From: Gaeumannomyces sp. JS-464
Taxonomy: Eukaryota > Ascomycota > Sordariomycetes > Magnaporthales > Magnaporthaceae
NCBI GenBank assembly: GCA_002197995.1
Contig: NGZR01000006.1
Coordinates: 2,593,001 to 2,657,000 of the forward strand
Length of the DNA: 64,000 bases
Reading direction: 5' to 3'
Shown here: positions 21,598-29,331 of the stretch, in pieces
How positions within the stretch are numbered: position 1 is the stretch's first letter
Layout: every line of letters starts with the position of its first letter
Program-made: the position numbers and the translations under genes
The notes under the pieces: generated by a model
Told to the model about the DNA's origin: nothing
The model's database searches: none
What the model saw: the letters and a program-made list of their open reading frames with translations, nothing else

Positions 21598-23138
21598 TCA
21601 GACATTTGCAACACTCTGCCTGATCATGTCTGCCCCTTTCTCCCCAATCATGATGCTGGCGCGTTTGTGTTGCCTGATATTACGAGAGGCATGATGGACG
21701 CGTCAACCACGCAGACCCTGCACGCCGTACACGCGCAGCTCCGGGTCCACCACGGCCATGGCGTCGACCCCCATCTTGCAGGTCCCCGCCATGTGATGGT
21801 ACGTCACGCACGCACGCCGGATGTAGTCGCGCAGCTGCTCGTCCGTCTGCGCTTCTGGTCCGGGCCACACCTCGCGTCCGCGCCAGCCCGCCAACGCCTC
21901 GGCCTCGCCGATTTTGCGACAGAGCTTGACCGACGCCAGCAGGGCCTCCATGTCGGACGGCTGGGACAGGTAGTTTGGGTCGACGCTCGGCGGCGCGTCG
22001 GGGTCGCTGCTCGCCAGCTTGACGGACCCCCTGCTCGCCGGCCGGATCATGCCGGCGCAGAGCGTGTAGGCGTTCGCGGGCCCCTCGAAGCCGGGCGGGT
22101 AGTACGGGATGTGCATGAAGAGCGGCTGCAGGTCGGGCGAGGCCAGGCGCGGGTCGCTCTTCCAGAAGAGCTGGCTCTCGAGCATCTGGTGGTTCGGCGG
22201 CGGGACGTCCTGCCTGCCCTCGTATATCACGGCGGTCAGGAGGTGGTCCTGCAGGTTCTCGCCCACACCCGGCAGGTCCGCCACGACGTCGACGCCCAGC
22301 GCGCGCAGCTCCGATGCGTCGCCGATGCCCGAGAGCTGCAGGAGCTGCGGCGACTTGACCGCGCCTGCCGAGATGATGACCTCGCGCGTTGCGAACACGT
22401 CGTGCGTCGCGCCGTCCTTCTCGTAGCGGACGCCCACGGCGCGGGTGCCCTCGAAGAGCACCTTGTGCGCGTTGGCCCTGGAGTAGGCGGTGAGGTTGCC
22501 GCACTTGAGTGCAGGGTGCAAGAAGCACAGGGCTGTGCTGCAGCGCTTCCCCTCGGGCGTGACGGTCACCTGGGTGTAGTTGGCGCCCAGGATGTCCTCT
22601 CCGTTGCAGTCGTCGGTAAACGGCAGCCCAATCTCCTTGCAGGCCTCCACCGCCGCGGTGCAGACGGGGTTGACCTGCTTGTTGACGGTGACGTGCAGCG
22701 GCCCGCCGACGCCGTGGTACTTGTTGGCGCCCTGCTCGTGGTTCTCCGACTTCTTGAAGTACGGCAGCACCTCGTCGTACGACCAGCCGACGTTGCCAAG
22801 GTACGCCAGGTGTCGTAGTCAATCCGGGCGCCGCGCGCGTAGATCATGCCGTTGAGCGACGAGCTGCCGCCGAAGGTCTTGCCGCGCGGCCAGTAGTGGG
22901 ACCGGCCCGCCGTGTGCTTTTGGGGCACAGTCGTGACGGCCCAGTCGCTCTCGCTCTGGAAGGTGGCGGGCCAGCAGGAGGGCAGGTGGATGTTGGGGTC
23001 GTCGTCGGGCGCGCCGGCCTCGAGCACAAGCACGCGCACGCTCGGGTCTTCGGCCAGGCGGCTGGCCACGACGCTGCCCGCCGAGCCCGAGCCGACAATG
23101 ATGTAGTCGAACTGGTCGCGTTCCTTGTGCCCGTTCAT
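21598..23138 (-). CDS. GMC-family FAD oxidoreductase (three frame breaks)
   Basis: The ATG at 23138 begins MNGHKERDQFDYIIVGSGSAG, the FAD-binding beta-alpha-beta motif, then VRVLVLEAG. GMC signature 1 is RGKTFGGSSSLNGMIYARG; signature 2 is AGAVKSPQLLQLSGIG. The C-terminal active-site region contains TYHHMAGTCKMG (His) and ISGNTNAP (Asn). Frame breaks lie near 22807 (DTW then LGNVGWSYDEVLPYF; one base), near 21710 (GLR then VDASIMP; two bases) and near 21658 (NAPA then IMIGEKGADMI; one base). The restored length is 514 residues, stop 21600-21598. There is no signal peptide, so a cytosolic choline/alcohol-dehydrogenase-like role fits better than a secreted oxidase. The exact substrate is unknown. 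Breaks occur in short G/C runs as in other genes here. Confidence 0.85.
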
Positions 23139-23671
23139 TTTGCCCGAGGGACTCAACTGAGGAGTTGACCTGTCACTGACCTCCAGGGTCTTGGGTGCGC
23201 ATTCGGTTGAAGCATCCCGGAGTGTGCCCCTCCCTTGTTCGGTGGAATGGAAGCGTGTGTACGTAAGGGAAAGGATCGGCGATGGGAAGGCGTAAGCATG
23301 CGCGCGCGGGTGTGCCAAGTGAGAGCGAAAACGAGCAGGGTTCCCCTTCGGCGTTATCACTCTCAGAAACGGCAAATGCTTCCCTCCCATAGCGCAGAGT
23401 TTTCCCTCATGCATCATTTCTGGTAAGTTTGTAGACGGGATGAAAGGCAATATTGTTAGCTTCAGAAGCGACACCACTAGCATTTGGAGAAGTAAATGGT
23501 GTAAAATGGATACCTTGCCTGGATGGCACGTCCTTCATCAAGTTCAAAGCATAGGTAAACAGGTTCGGCGAGCACAAGTTAGAAACAATAGGTACCATCT
23601 CTGCGGATTGACGAGCTGTCGACAGGCAAAAAACGAGGTTATATAGATGTAAACACTGAAATTGGTCAGTC
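23139..23671. other. Intergenic
   Basis: GMC promoter and 3' flank of the HeLo-like gene; no further signal. Confidence 0.5.
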
Positions 23672-24537
23672 CTACGCCTTTCCACCAAATGTGGCACAGA
23701 TGTTGCCGTGGCTAACTCCTATTTGTTGCCCAGAGTTATGGCTTCCAAAGGTCACTGTAGTACCCTGGCTTGCCCGGGCATTTGCTGCTGCCGCTTCGAC
23801 AACCGAAAGCAGTTCTTCGAGCACTTGATGGGACTCGCCCAAGGCCTTCTGCTCCATCGCAACCTGGCTGGTGGCACTGGCCCTGTCGGCTTCCGTGTCG
23901 CCCTCACCCGGCCTTGCTAGGCAAAGGGCCCCCAGTTTGGCGCCCATCTGACTTAGTTGCTTGTCCATTGCCGCGAGTGTATCAGCAATCGCCGTCTCCT
24001 TTGTCGATATCGTTGTTTGGATCGCTTCGGCCGTTTGGGTTTGCTGGAGGGATATGCGTCTAGGACTCATTAGCGCCTATCCCCTATGAAGTCGGGCGGT
24101 TCCGCTTACAGTGTCGCAATGTTGGCTATAGAAGATAGTGTGACATGGCAGTTCCGAAGCTGATCCGAAATGGATTTGACGTGGCCCTGTTTGCAGATGC
24201 CAAGGGCTGCGCGGTCTCGCCAGGATAGCGTTCCATGCTTGCTGTGCCGGGTCCAGTGATTTAGCGAGGCTTTAAATCTTTCGCAGGAGTTTTTGCAGGA
24301 AGTTATCGCAGCCTCGGACTGTCTGGCGACGGGCTCGCCCAGAGACCTCCACTGAGGACTCGAGATGTCCCTAACCGAGGCGAGGGCAAGGTCGACGGAT
24401 TCCAGATCTTTGGTGAGTGCCTTGACAGCATCAGGCGCGTCGACAATGCTCCGGATGTCGTGTACCAGCTGTCTCACGCAATGGAGAGTTGGGGCGATAA
24501 TCCCCACGACTCCAGCGGCGATACTAAAGGGGTCCAT
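23672..24537 (-). CDS. HeLo-like cell-death effector with C-terminal PP amyloid motif (HELLP-like)
   Basis: Exons 24537-24110 and 24059-23672 give 271 residues; the 50-bp intron starts GTAAGC, has a CTAAT branch site and ends CCTAG. The N-terminus MDPFSIAAGVVGIIAPTLHC starts a helical domain (about 1-143) of the fungal PF17111 type (HeLo-like; PigL_N/STAND N-terminal). Residues about 150-240 form a coiled-coil linker (QTAEAIQTTISTKETAIA). The C-terminus carries TFGSHNSGQQIGVSHGNI: N251-x-G-x-Q-x-G with a QIG core as in RHIM-like PP motifs, though the final N of the palindrome is Ser259. In the known HELLP system the HeLo-like domain targets membranes and kills the cell once the C-terminal motif is templated into amyloid by a partner NLR. 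That partner is adjacent and divergent. The frame is intact. Function is inferred from architecture and pairing. Confidence 0.8.
23680..23760 (-). other. Amyloid signalling (PP/RHIM-like) motif of the effector
   Basis: Encodes TTVTFGSHNSGQQIGVSHG and NICATF at the extreme C-terminus. About 14 of 22 residues match the NLR N-terminal motif encoded at 24815-24880 (T-F-G-S-x-N-x-G-Q-Q-x-G pattern, then G-x-I-x-A-x-F). Confidence 0.8.
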
Positions 24538-24805
24538 CACGGCGCGCTGGTTTGAGGCCGCGAGAATCCGCGAAAACAGCCAGCACGCAAACGCCTGAAG
24601 GCTTAGGTTGGGCAGAAATTCCGCAAAGGAGCAGCTGAGGTTGGGCTCGAATCACGTGCAGCTGAATGGGCAGGCTGCTGCCTGATTGCGCCCGAGGGGC
24701 AGGCGGGGCAGCTTCAGCCAGAGACCTTTCCTGCTTTCACGACAAAACATCGCGACGTCGACTACTTCTGCAACAAGGAGCTTCAGCAACCACCGCAACG
24801 ACACG
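24538..24805. promoter_or_regulatory. Shared divergent promoter of the effector/NLR pair
   Basis: 268 bp separate the two ATGs, so both genes must be driven from this bidirectional interval. No clear TATA box was found. Confidence 0.6.
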
Positions 24806-27152
24806 ATGCAGTCCACTTTCGGATCCGAGAACCGTGGCCAGCAAGTGGGGCAGAACTATGGGACGATCAACGCAGAGTTCCACTGCGCGCAGCGTACGTC
24901 GACACCACCCATTCTCGCTGGAGGCTCAGGACAGCCGAGTTGCGCTGACATTTGATTGACGTTTGGCGCTTCCGGTTGCACCAGAACGGCCGGAGACACC
25001 CCCGCGGCCGTTCGCCTCCGTCCCCTTCTCCCGCGACCCCGATTTCGTCAACCGAGGAGACATTCTCGACCAGCTTCATCAGCGATGCACGCGGCCGGCG
25101 GGTCGTGCAGCTCTTCTTGGCTTGGGTGGCATTGGGTATGCGTGGTTCCTCCCTACAGCTGCCAGAAACAAGCTGACTAGAAGCAGCAAGTCGCAGTTGG
25201 CTATCGAATTTGCCTACCAAATGGACAAGGGACGGCCCAAGAGATGGATATTCTGGATCCATGCTGCCACGCAAGCCCGCGTCGAGGAAGGCTTCCGAGA
25301 TATTGCTAACGCCGTCAAGCTGCCCGGCCGGAACCAGCCCGACGCGAACATAACGCAGCTTGTGCACGACTGGCTATCCCAGAAACGGGACGCCCGATGG
25401 ACCATCATCCTGGACAGCGCCGATGACAACGACGTGCTGTACCAGGCAAAAAGTGACGGAGAAGGCAAACCATTGACAAGCTACCTCCCACAAAGCCCGA
25501 ATGGATGTATCGTTATCACGACCCGCAACCGAGACCTGGCGTACAAGCTCACCGGGAGCTACAAAGACATCATTGAAGTTGGGCCTATGGCGCCGGCTGA
25601 TGCGCTCCGCCTCCTGGAAAAGAGACTGGACTCGCGACCCGATCCGGAGGGGGCCAAGAGCCTGGTAGAGGCATTGGACTTTGTCCCTCTTGCCATCAGC
25701 CAGGCGGCGGCTTACATCCAGAAAACGCCGACAAGCTCGGTCGAAAGATATTTGGCGGACTTTCGCAACGATGAACGCAAGCGGAGTCATCTTCTCAGAC
25801 ACGACGCAGCCGAGTTCCGACGGGATGGCGCGGCATCAAACGCTATCCTTACAACTTGGCAGATCTCATTCGAGCACATCCGCTCGCAAAGACCTTCTGC
25901 GGCCGACCTTCTGTCGCTCATGAGCTTCTTCGACCGACAAGGAATACTTCTGTCGCTTCTCAAGCCTGTTTATTCGCGGGATGCGCAGCCAGGCTCGGAC
26001 CCCGAGTCTGGCACGAGCATCGCCGAGGCAGACGGCATCTTTGATGGCGATGTTTCAATGCTGCGAAGCTTTTGTCTTGTGTCCATGACCGAAGACGGGA
26101 GAGCGATGGAGATGCACGCGCTCGTGCAGTTAGCAACAAGAATATGGCTAGGTCAAACCGATGCGCAGCAGCAAAAATTCCAGCAGCAGTTTGTCGAACT
26201 GATGGCAGCGGCATTCCCTAGTGGCAACTACGGCACCTGGGAACAGTGCCGGAAACTCTTTGCGCATGTTAACGCCGCCGAAAGCCACGGTCCCGTCGAG
26301 GAGAAGGCGTGGGAATGGGGAAAACTCATGGGTAACGGCGGGTGGTATGCCTGCAACCAAGGCAACTACAAGGTAGCAGAGCGGATGCTGCGCAACGCCC
26401 AGACGAATTGTGAGGAGAGGCGAGGAAAAGATCATGGCTGGGCTTTGGGCAATATGGCAAGATTGGCGACAACTTTGTGGCGTCAAGGCCAGTTGCAGGA
26501 GGCTGAAAAGCTAGAAGTGGAGGTGATGGAAGTTCACAAAGCCAAACTCGGGGCCGACCATCCCGATACATTAACAAGCATAAACAATCTCGCATCAACC
26601 TTTCGGGATCAAGGCCGGTTGCAGGAGGCTGAAAAGCTGGAGGTGGAGGTGATGGAAACTCGCAAAGCCAAACTCGGGGCCGACCATCCCGATACATTAG
26701 CAAGCATAAACAACCTGGCGATAACCTTTCGGTATCAAAGCCGGTTGCAGGAGGCTGAAAAGCTGCAGGTGGAGGTGATGGAAACTCGCAAAGCCAAACT
26801 CGGGGCCGACCATCCCGATACATTAACAAGCATAGGCAATCTCGCATCAACCTTTCGGGATCAAGGCCGGTTGCAGGAGGCTGAAAAGCTGGAGGTGGAG
26901 GTGATGGAAACTCGCAAAGCCAAACTCGGGGCCGATCATCCCGATACATTAACAAGCATGAACAATCTCGCGTTGACTTGGAAAAGTCAGGGTCGTCATG
27001 CAGCTGCCCTGAAGCTGATGAGGGATTGCGCGCAGAGTCGACAGCAGATTCTGGGTCCACACCACCCGTATACTGTTGGTTCCTTTGCGGCAGTAGCTGA
27101 TTGGAGCAGTTATAATGAGGGACGGAAGGGCGAACATCGAGACCACTGTTAA
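24806..27152 (+). CDS. NLR: PP motif, NB-ARC, TPR (PNT1-like)
   Basis: Exons 24806-24893, 24985-25135 and 25187-27152 give 734 residues. The introns are 91 bp (GTACGT..CCAG) and 51 bp (GTATGC..GCAG, CTGAC branch). The second intron interrupts the P-loop; splicing gives LLGLGGIGKSQLAIEFAYQ. N-terminal residues 4-22 read TFGSENRGQQVGQNYGTIN, containing N9-R-G-Q-Q-V-G-Q-N17, an exact N-x-G-x-Q-x-G-x-N pseudo-palindrome. Then RPETPPRPFASVPFSRDPDF leads into NB-ARC with WTIILDSADD (Walker B), GCIVITTRNRDLAY, VPLAISQAAAYI and an MHALVQLATRIWL motif in the MHD position. Residues 516-683 are four near-identical 42-residue TPR units (LQEAEKLEVEVMETRKAKLG) plus a degenerate fifth. This is the PNT1 layout: ligand-sensing NLR that nucleates amyloid and activates the HELLP-type effector. 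The long frame also reads through intron 2 without a stop, which would wrongly destroy the P-loop. Confidence 0.85.
26493..26996 (+). repeat. Four near-identical 126-bp TPR repeats
   Basis: Units start at 26493, 26619, 26745 and 26871, differing at only a few bases each. They encode kinesin-light-chain-like TPR units; a fifth diverged unit follows. Confidence 0.95.
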
Positions 27153-27374: not shown

Positions 27375-27668
27375 CTCTCGATGGTGAGGTGTGACCGAGT
27401 TCTAGAGCAATTACAGCGGGGAGCTACATAAAGGCGTCCGTGAAGCCCGCCTAGGCCCAAGGGCTGACCAGGCAGCAGTTCGAATACTAGCTCGCGAATC
27501 TGGAAGCACGATCTCGGATCTTCCCCGCCAGGGGGCATCGCCTGCATGGTTGACTTTCTGTGGGGGTCACGGCTCTGACAATATCGAGCGGGCGTGGGAG
27601 ACGAGAGCAAGCCCACAGTAGCAACGAGGGTAGAGGGACGGGACATATCTGTATGGTCCCGCGTGAGG

Positions 27669-27781
27669 CGTGAGATGATAGCTATCACACATCACACTAC
27701 CGTACCCCCCCCCCCCCCCCACCCCCCCCCCCCCCCTGAGGAGCGTGAGATTGATAGCTATCACACTCACACTACCGTACG

Positions 27782-27814
<33 letters not shown>
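27669..27814. repeat. Tandem 37-bp repeat each followed by a poly-C tract
   Basis: Copies at 27669-27705 and 27744-27780 share CGTGAGAT, the palindrome GATAGCTATC, CACACTACCGTAC, and are each followed by about 30 C (the first interrupted once by A). Confidence 0.9.
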
Positions 27815-28403: not shown

Positions 28404-29331
28404 TCACAAACTCCTCCAGATCAGCAAGCAGGTCACGCGGGCACTCCAGGGCCTCGTGGCGTGCATGATGGCGTAGCCGATACCGTCCGTCTTGAACCTC
28501 TCCCAGCGCTCCGGCCCGGCCGCTTCCTGGGCTAACAGGCGCTCCTCAAATGGCGGCAGCAGGCCCTCCAGGCCCGGCGGTTTGGGCACGGGGCTGTAGT
28601 TGAGCAGCGCGCCGCTGCAGCTTGCGTACTGCGCGGCGAGGATGCGGCAGACGCGCGAGCCGATGTCGCCGCCCTGGCAGTGGTAGCGCGCCGTGCCGAA
28701 GCCGAGGGCCGCGACCATCAGGTTATCCATGATGCGTGCCACGTCCTCGAGGCCGAAGTCGCGGTCCAGCGGCGGCGAGCCCGAAAAAAGGTAACCGGGG
28801 AGTGACGGAACGACGACGTGGTAGGGCAGAGTGGCGGGGGTGTATTTGGCCGCGAGCTCGTCGAGCATCGGAGGAACTCGAGGAATGAGCCCGGCCAGCC
28901 GTGCAACAGCAAGAGTGGCTTGGCCGGCCGAGCGGCGCGCGAGAACAGGCCGACGAAGTGGATGTCGATCTTCCCGCCGCTCCCGGTTGGGACCTTGGCG
29001 ATGAAATGGCTGTGGCGGTTTAAATGGGCCTGCTGTTTGTCCCTATGAGGCACATTAGAGACAACCCTTTGGACGGCTACACGTAACAGCGCGCTCACCA
29101 GTCAAAGTGTGTCTCCCATCGCTTCTTGGCGGCGCCGAACCAGTCGCGCCGCAGACCGAACTTCCGGCTGCCGTCGGGCGGCGAGTTCTCGTAGCACGGC
29201 GTCGGGACAGGCGAGAGCTCGACCAGCGTCCGCATCCGTTCCACCTTGTCGCTGGCGATGTCGACGGTGTACGGCGCCACGACATCCGCGTCCGCCGTGT
29301 CCGGCAGCTGACCAAAGCTCTTGCTATCCAT
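28404..29331 (-). pseudogene. Epoxide hydrolase, 3'-truncated
   Basis: Exon 1 (29331-29099) encodes an EHN-type N-terminal domain: PYTVDIASDKVERMRTLVEL ending RRDWFGAAKKRWETHFDW. A 56-bp intron (GTGAGC..CATAG) leads to AHLNRHSHFIAKVPTG, the oxyanion HGWPGSFLEFL, a one-base gap near 28870, then VVPSLPGYLFSGSPP and the nucleophile motif CQGGDIGSRV. The family normally continues for another 100 or so residues with the cap end and catalytic His after the STRP-like motif; here the frame ends soon after YAIMHATRP with no such sequence in any frame downstream. The charge-relay His is therefore absent and the gene is probably dead. Intact relatives are microsomal-type epoxide hydrolases opening epoxides of xenobiotics or secondary metabolites. 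Confidence 0.75.

Follow-up and report, generated by a model that had tools for sequence, protein, structure and literature searches.

A head-to-head HeLo-like effector and NB-ARC/TPR receptor gene pair, very probably of HELLP-PNT1 type, in a fungus close to Gaeumannomyces

Results

Gene models of the effector and receptor pair

Two adjacent, divergently oriented genes, encoding a HeLo-like effector and a NOD-like receptor (NLR), occupy positions 23672 to 27152 of a 64-kb window, which is the whole stretch of DNA analysed and lies on contig 31 (working numbering) of a 53-Mb, 34-contig genome. By protein similarity the source organism is close to Gaeumannomyces. With high probability, the two genes together form an amyloid NLR signalosome of HELLP-PNT1 type, characterized by the PP motif. 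Both gene models rest on the DNA sequence and on relatives, with introns selected by enumeration of GT-AG splice sites. The modelled start codons stand head to head across a shared intergenic region of 268 bp (24538..24805), as the initial annotation had stated, and both frames are open, in agreement with its description of both genes as intact.

The effector gene is on the minus strand and extends from an ATG at 24537 to position 23672; with one 50-bp intron removed it encodes a 271-aa product. Exon 1 (24110..24537) encodes most of the HeLo-like domain and on its own scores 53.2 bits with PF17111 in a search of the genome, and exon 2 (23672..24059, with the stop codon at 23672-23674) encodes a helical stalk and the C-terminal PP motif. 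The predicted intron (24060..24109, GTAAGC..TCCTAG) is our choice among 4 workable introns listed, and the spliced product is collinear with its relatives. PF17111, which is named PigL_N in the Pfam copy used and termed HeLo-like in PMC9815663, matches residues 1-204 of the spliced effector with 69.7 bits against a cut-off of 27.2, and the original designation as a HeLo-like effector therefore stands. Searching by sequence for an effector relative of solved structure gave nothing credible. An MLKL-like executioner fold, a four-helix bundle with an N-terminal helix, was considered for the effector; comparison with the PDB gave no match clearly above the helical-bundle background.

The NLR gene is on the plus strand, from an ATG at 24806 to position 27152, and its two introns leave a product of 734 aa. 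The PP motif is encoded by exon 1 (24806..24893); exon 2 (24985..25135) encodes the linker RPETPP, shared with relatives, and the start of the nucleotide-binding domain; exon 3 (25187..27152) encodes NB-ARC from the P-loop lysine onward, the region that follows it and the tetratricopeptide repeats (TPRs). Introns 1 (24894-24984, GTACGT..CACCAG) and 2 (25136-25186, GTATGC..AAGCAG) were chosen from 42 listed combinations because this pair alone gives GLGGIGKSQLAIE at the P-loop together with the linker length of the relatives. That the motif exon is spliced to the rest of the NLR is supported by annotated relatives with an equal linker length. The NB-ARC signatures GLGGIGKSQ, WTIILDSADD, CIVITTRNRD and FVPLAISQAA are intact at residues 75, 151, 187 and 245, and Pfam detects NB-ARC (29.9 bits, cut-off 23.5) and TPR_10 (229.5 bits, cut-off 27.5), both consistent with the NB-ARC/TPR architecture first assigned. 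The TPR array (26483..26971) is built from a nearly identical 126-bp (42-aa) unit, present in 3.9 copies with 92% matches.

A PP motif is shared by the two proteins

Each protein carries a single PP motif, C-terminal in the effector (TFGSHNSGQQIGVSHGNI, 23699..23752, minus strand) and N-terminal in the NLR (TFGSENRGQQVGQNYGTI, 24815..24868, plus strand). The two copies are identical at 11/18, 12/20 or 13/22 positions, depending on the length compared, so that the similarity first reported is real, with a count slightly lower than the "about 14 of 22" given then. The NLR copy is an exact fit to N-x-G-x-Q-x-G-x-N, as had been noted, and the effector copy fits except for a Ser at the last position. 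When the two protein ends were shuffled, none of 5000 shuffles equalled the observed motif score. Codons differ at 7 of the 11 residues common to both copies, which argues that no recent copying of DNA took place between the effector and NLR genes.

Two PP profiles were constructed, from 21 distinct effector motifs and from 67 distinct NLR motifs, omitting 26 rows (Gaeumannomyces, Magnaporthiopsis and two close others) and keeping Pyricularia. The effector profile scores 43.6 bits with the window effector and 36.3 bits with the window NLR, and the NLR profile scores 48.8 bits with the NLR and 19.8 bits with the effector. These values are far above background: among 1805 six-frame segments of the window (98,066 aa), the highest score outside the two motifs is 4.9 bits, and ten shuffled sets reach a maximum of 10.5 bits. 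With the PF17111 match to the effector, these scores contradict two of the three refuting conditions named in the initial annotation. In the Pfam search, PF17046 (Ses_B) marks exactly the two motifs, at NLR residues 5-22 (22.8 bits) and effector residues 247-263 (17.0 bits), both below the cut-off of 23.2. In the genome search, with its frame neighbours, the NLR scores 23.8 bits, above that cut-off, and the effector 19.4 bits, below it; a relative from Podospora pseudocomata (P0013) is likewise just below at 23.1 bits. From the places at which it matches, we read PF17046 as standing for the PP motif. The HET-s prion-domain family is absent from the Pfam matches of the pair at E ≤0.1.

The motif was recognised at the same protein ends in 27 of 45 effector relatives and in 92 of the 120 NLR relatives listed (of 441), the relatives without a recognised motif including fragments and differing gene models. 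At the last position of the palindrome, the 27 motif-bearing effector relatives have Asn (15), Ser (10), Leu (1) or Ile (1). The suggestion that Ser is a peculiarity of the window effector that tunes its seeding specificity was rejected, Ser being common among these relatives. Both window cores (GQQIG and GQQVG) have Gln before the central Q, as do 19/27 effector and 23/92 listed NLR motif-bearing relatives at this first hydrophobic (phi) position. The core shared by RHIM and PP motifs has a hydrophobic residue there, as described in PMC7885112, and so neither window copy matches the RHIM core G-phi-Q-phi-G. No PDB chain matched the PP profile at E ≤10. The label "RHIM-like" holds for the central Q, the flanking glycines and one hydrophobic residue, but not for the first phi position.

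Relatives of the pair and their inheritance

Searches returned 45 proteins related to the effector and 441 related to residues 1-130 of the NLR, of which 120 were listed. The closest effector relative is Gaeumannomyces hyphopodioides RB595_010335 (81%), and the next locus tag, RB595_010336, is a PP NLR. Consecutive locus tags were found for 8 pairs, from G. hyphopodioides, G. tritici (two), G. avenae, Madurella fahalii, Collariella, Monosporascus and a Fusarium. Among the matches listed, at least seven further effector/NLR pairs are provisionally assigned to one source genome each, an assignment that does not extend to adjacency of their tags. Searching with a profile of the effector family returned 69 rows, of which 36 had not been found before; many were of 130-160 aa, and no pairs were added from this search.

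Trees were built without the motifs. In the effector tree, the window protein is sister to P0001, P0002, P0004 and P0014 (clade 100/100; inner split 85/79), and in the NLR tree to P0062, P0101, P0072, P0082 and P0093 (clade 100/100; inner split 100/99). Both trees thus place the window copy beside one and the same Gaeumannomyces group. The agreement of the trees, together with the consecutive tags of the 8 pairs, fits inheritance of the effector and the NLR as a unit.

A Penicillium chrysogenum protein (P0186), named a cytochrome P450 in its source, carries both PF17111 and PF17046, and an effector of the HeLo-like/PP kind may therefore exist outside the Sordariomycetes. Several NLRs, including P0047 and P0048 of G. 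hyphopodioides, P0053 and P0067, have a long N-terminal part ahead of the PP motif. In P0047 the order is an apparent SesB-like lipase (DUF676, 19.9 bits, cut-off 20.3), PP (PF17046, 22.1 bits, cut-off 23.2), NB-ARC and TPR. This protein looks like parts of the Chaetomium globosum SBP and PNT1 proteins joined in one polypeptide, with the motif kept inside.

Motif variation in the sister group

A Phe lies 4 residues past the Gly of the second half of the motif in effectors P0001, P0002, P0004 and P0014, as GS(I/V)VF, and also in NLRs P0062, P0072, P0082, P0083 and P0093, as GN(A/V)(Y/H)F. In both window proteins the offset is 6. That effectors and NLRs of the sister group alike have an offset of 4, compared with 6 in the window, would be possible as one matched change on matching branches. 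From this it could be proposed that the amyloid motifs of both partners were re-tuned together along lineages. We consider this proposal doubtful, and several observations weigh against it. The shift in the NLRs depends on the alignment, and the net length change is one residue. The sister-group NLRs, but not their effectors, have in addition replaced the Gln that precedes the central Q by Met. Offset 4 occurs in 5/27 effectors, one of them from a Fusarium in which the neighbouring NLR has an offset of 6. Effectors with offset 7 pair with NLRs with offset 6. Among the 92 listed motif-bearing NLRs, offset 4 occurs in 9, of which 5 are Gaeumannomyces and 4 are C. globosum rows.

Co-variation was analysed for the window pair and 14 others, 7 paired by consecutive tags and 7 only by a presumed common source genome. 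P0025/P0071 (consecutive tags, with an effector model that has no motif) and P0013/P0108 (presumed common source genome, tags not adjacent) were left out, as were P0015 and P0027, each with several candidate NLRs in its presumed source genome and hence an ambiguous partner. Motif identity is higher within pairs than across them (mean 10.9 versus 9.6 of 21; permutation p ~1e-4, or 5e-5 by similarity, 15 pairs). Co-variation as proof of coupling was rejected, the link across the 15 pairs not being significant when HeLo distances were held fixed, which also counts against joint re-tuning. If joint re-tuning were true, the window pair and the sister group would represent seeding pairs found in nature that are close relatives yet differ in specificity, and would show a signalling amyloid changing without losing its partner.

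Other copies in the genome

A decayed collinear copy of the effector and NLR, also head to head, is found on contig 12 at ~1.481-1.485 Mb, with 65% DNA identity over 3357 aligned columns and an extra NLR piece alongside. Its three main matched stretches contain 18 TAG/TAA stops, a count taken from six-frame matches that can enter introns (the match to the window effector itself shows one TAA in this way). Relative to the window, C>T plus G>A differences number 419 against 204 for the reverse, which suggests that repeat-induced point mutation (RIP) caused the stops. Against this, no outgroup fixes the direction of change, and the changes are most frequent at CpT (ApG) and slightly less so at CpA (TpG), an order that differs from the classical one. 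A relic of a paralogous effector C-terminus with a clean PP motif (QQVGVNSGTI) lies in an open frame of 70 aa on contig 34 (306211-306420), and contig 1 holds additional NLR pieces. No pair other than that of the window was found in the genome with both frames open, and the copies as a whole look like the ordinary birth and death of such genes.

These copies raise an alternative, that the window pair descends from a HELLP-PNT1 system but has fallen silent or is failing, as a remnant heading for the decay of its sister copy. The stops of the contig 12 copy and the contig 34 relic are consistent with such a course, as is the start of an AT-rich, RIP-like half of the window ~9-11 kb from the pair. 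The open frames, the intact NB-ARC signatures and the dinucleotide indices of the pair itself, which are not RIP-like, argue otherwise, and we regard a remnant as unlikely.

No lipase bearing a PP motif (SBP) was detected in the 64-kb window, where the PP profiles match only the effector and NLR copies; PF17046 does not match the alpha/beta hydrolase frame closest to the pair (28407-29042). Five PF17046 matches were scored in the genome, corresponding to the window NLR, the window effector, two relics and one seemingly spurious frame, and none was a lipase by eye. The closest lipase in the genome, on contig 1, shares 86% identity with the lipase portion of P0047 from G. hyphopodioides; no PP motif was seen in its frame, although an exon further on may hold one.

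Sequences flanking the pair

The pair lies in the GC-rich part of the window. From 36000 to 64000, GC content drops from ~0.6 to 0.28-0.43, and the dinucleotide index is strongly RIP-like in most bins. To the left, a GMC oxidoreductase (21706-23534, minus strand) is divided between two reading frames, the switch between them lying near 22.82 kb and reflecting a frameshift, an assembly error or an unmodelled intron. The initial contrast between the intact pair and most of its neighbours was checked in part, at this split gene and in the AT-rich region. Just 3' of the NLR, at 27668-27813, are nearly two copies of a 76-bp unit with poly-C runs of ~32 bases.

Discussion

The PP type of signalosome has been described (PMC7885112, PMC5485727, PMC9815663), and the window pair is very probably a further, well-preserved example, with both genes adjacent, their domains and motifs in place, and trees that agree with inheritance as a unit. 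HELLP-PNT1 amyloid signalling has been demonstrated experimentally in Podospora anserina, as reported in PMC7885112. The system described there likewise has adjacent genes, a 271-aa HeLo-like effector with a C-terminal PP region, and an NB-ARC/TPR NLR with PP inside its first 31 residues; the window pair differs in coming from another lineage, near Gaeumannomyces by protein similarity. As a stand-in for the proven P. anserina sequence, the P. pseudocomata relative P0013 is also 271 aa and is 63% identical to the window effector. The CgHELLP-CgSBP-CgPNT1 system of C. globosum (PMC7885112, PMC5485727) resembles the window pair in its HeLo-like effector and PP NLR, but is a three-gene form, whereas no PP-bearing lipase accompanies the window pair, judged by the 64-kb window and the five PF17046 matches in the genome. 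HET-S/NWD2 and HELLF/FNT1 (HRAM motifs) follow the same two-gene logic with a different motif. The RHIM amyloids of RIPK1/RIPK3 have in common with the window motifs the central Q, the glycines on either side and one hydrophobic residue, and differ in the residue before that Q, which is Gln in the window copies; PP and RHIM prions cross-seed in part, according to PMC7885112.

From its family we infer that the pair would function as a cell-death switch, through amyloid formation and killing. A ligand would bind the NLR through its TPR array, after which the NB-ARC domain would oligomerise. The clustered N-terminal PP motifs would fold into an amyloid nucleus and so template the PP motif at the C-terminus of the effector, whose helical domain would move to the plasma membrane and kill the fungal cell. 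Nucleation, templating, membrane targeting and death are carried over from experiments on the P. anserina and C. globosum relatives.

The pair might instead serve allorecognition (vegetative incompatibility), as het-s does in P. anserina, rather than act as an immune sensor. The near identity of the repeats in the TPR array is in keeping with repeat turnover; according to PMC7885112, the repeat number of pnt1 ranges from 4 to 10 among wild isolates, and HELLP can produce a synthetic incompatibility. The authors of that paper state that they do not infer HELLP to be a natural incompatibility gene, and we consider this role improbable for the window pair. That the shared motif, short and G-, N- and Q-rich as it is, arose by chance, through low complexity or by recent copying between the genes is extremely improbable, given the shuffles, the separate detection of each copy by profiles of relatives, the differing codons and the recurrence of the motif at corresponding protein ends in both families.

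A literature search by titles and the openings of abstracts found no such pair in this lineage, which says little, as subscription journals were mostly uncovered. Beyond a further example of a described type, the novelty is modest and lies in the decayed collinear copy in the genome and in a possible matched motif change in the sister group. As a HELLP-PNT1 signalosome, the pair would add a fungus close to Gaeumannomyces to those with this proven, necroptosis-like amyloid switch. The comparison with relatives indicates joint inheritance of effector and receptor. The intact pair, its decayed collinear counterpart and a motif-altered sister group together provide material on how the specificity of amyloid signalling evolves.

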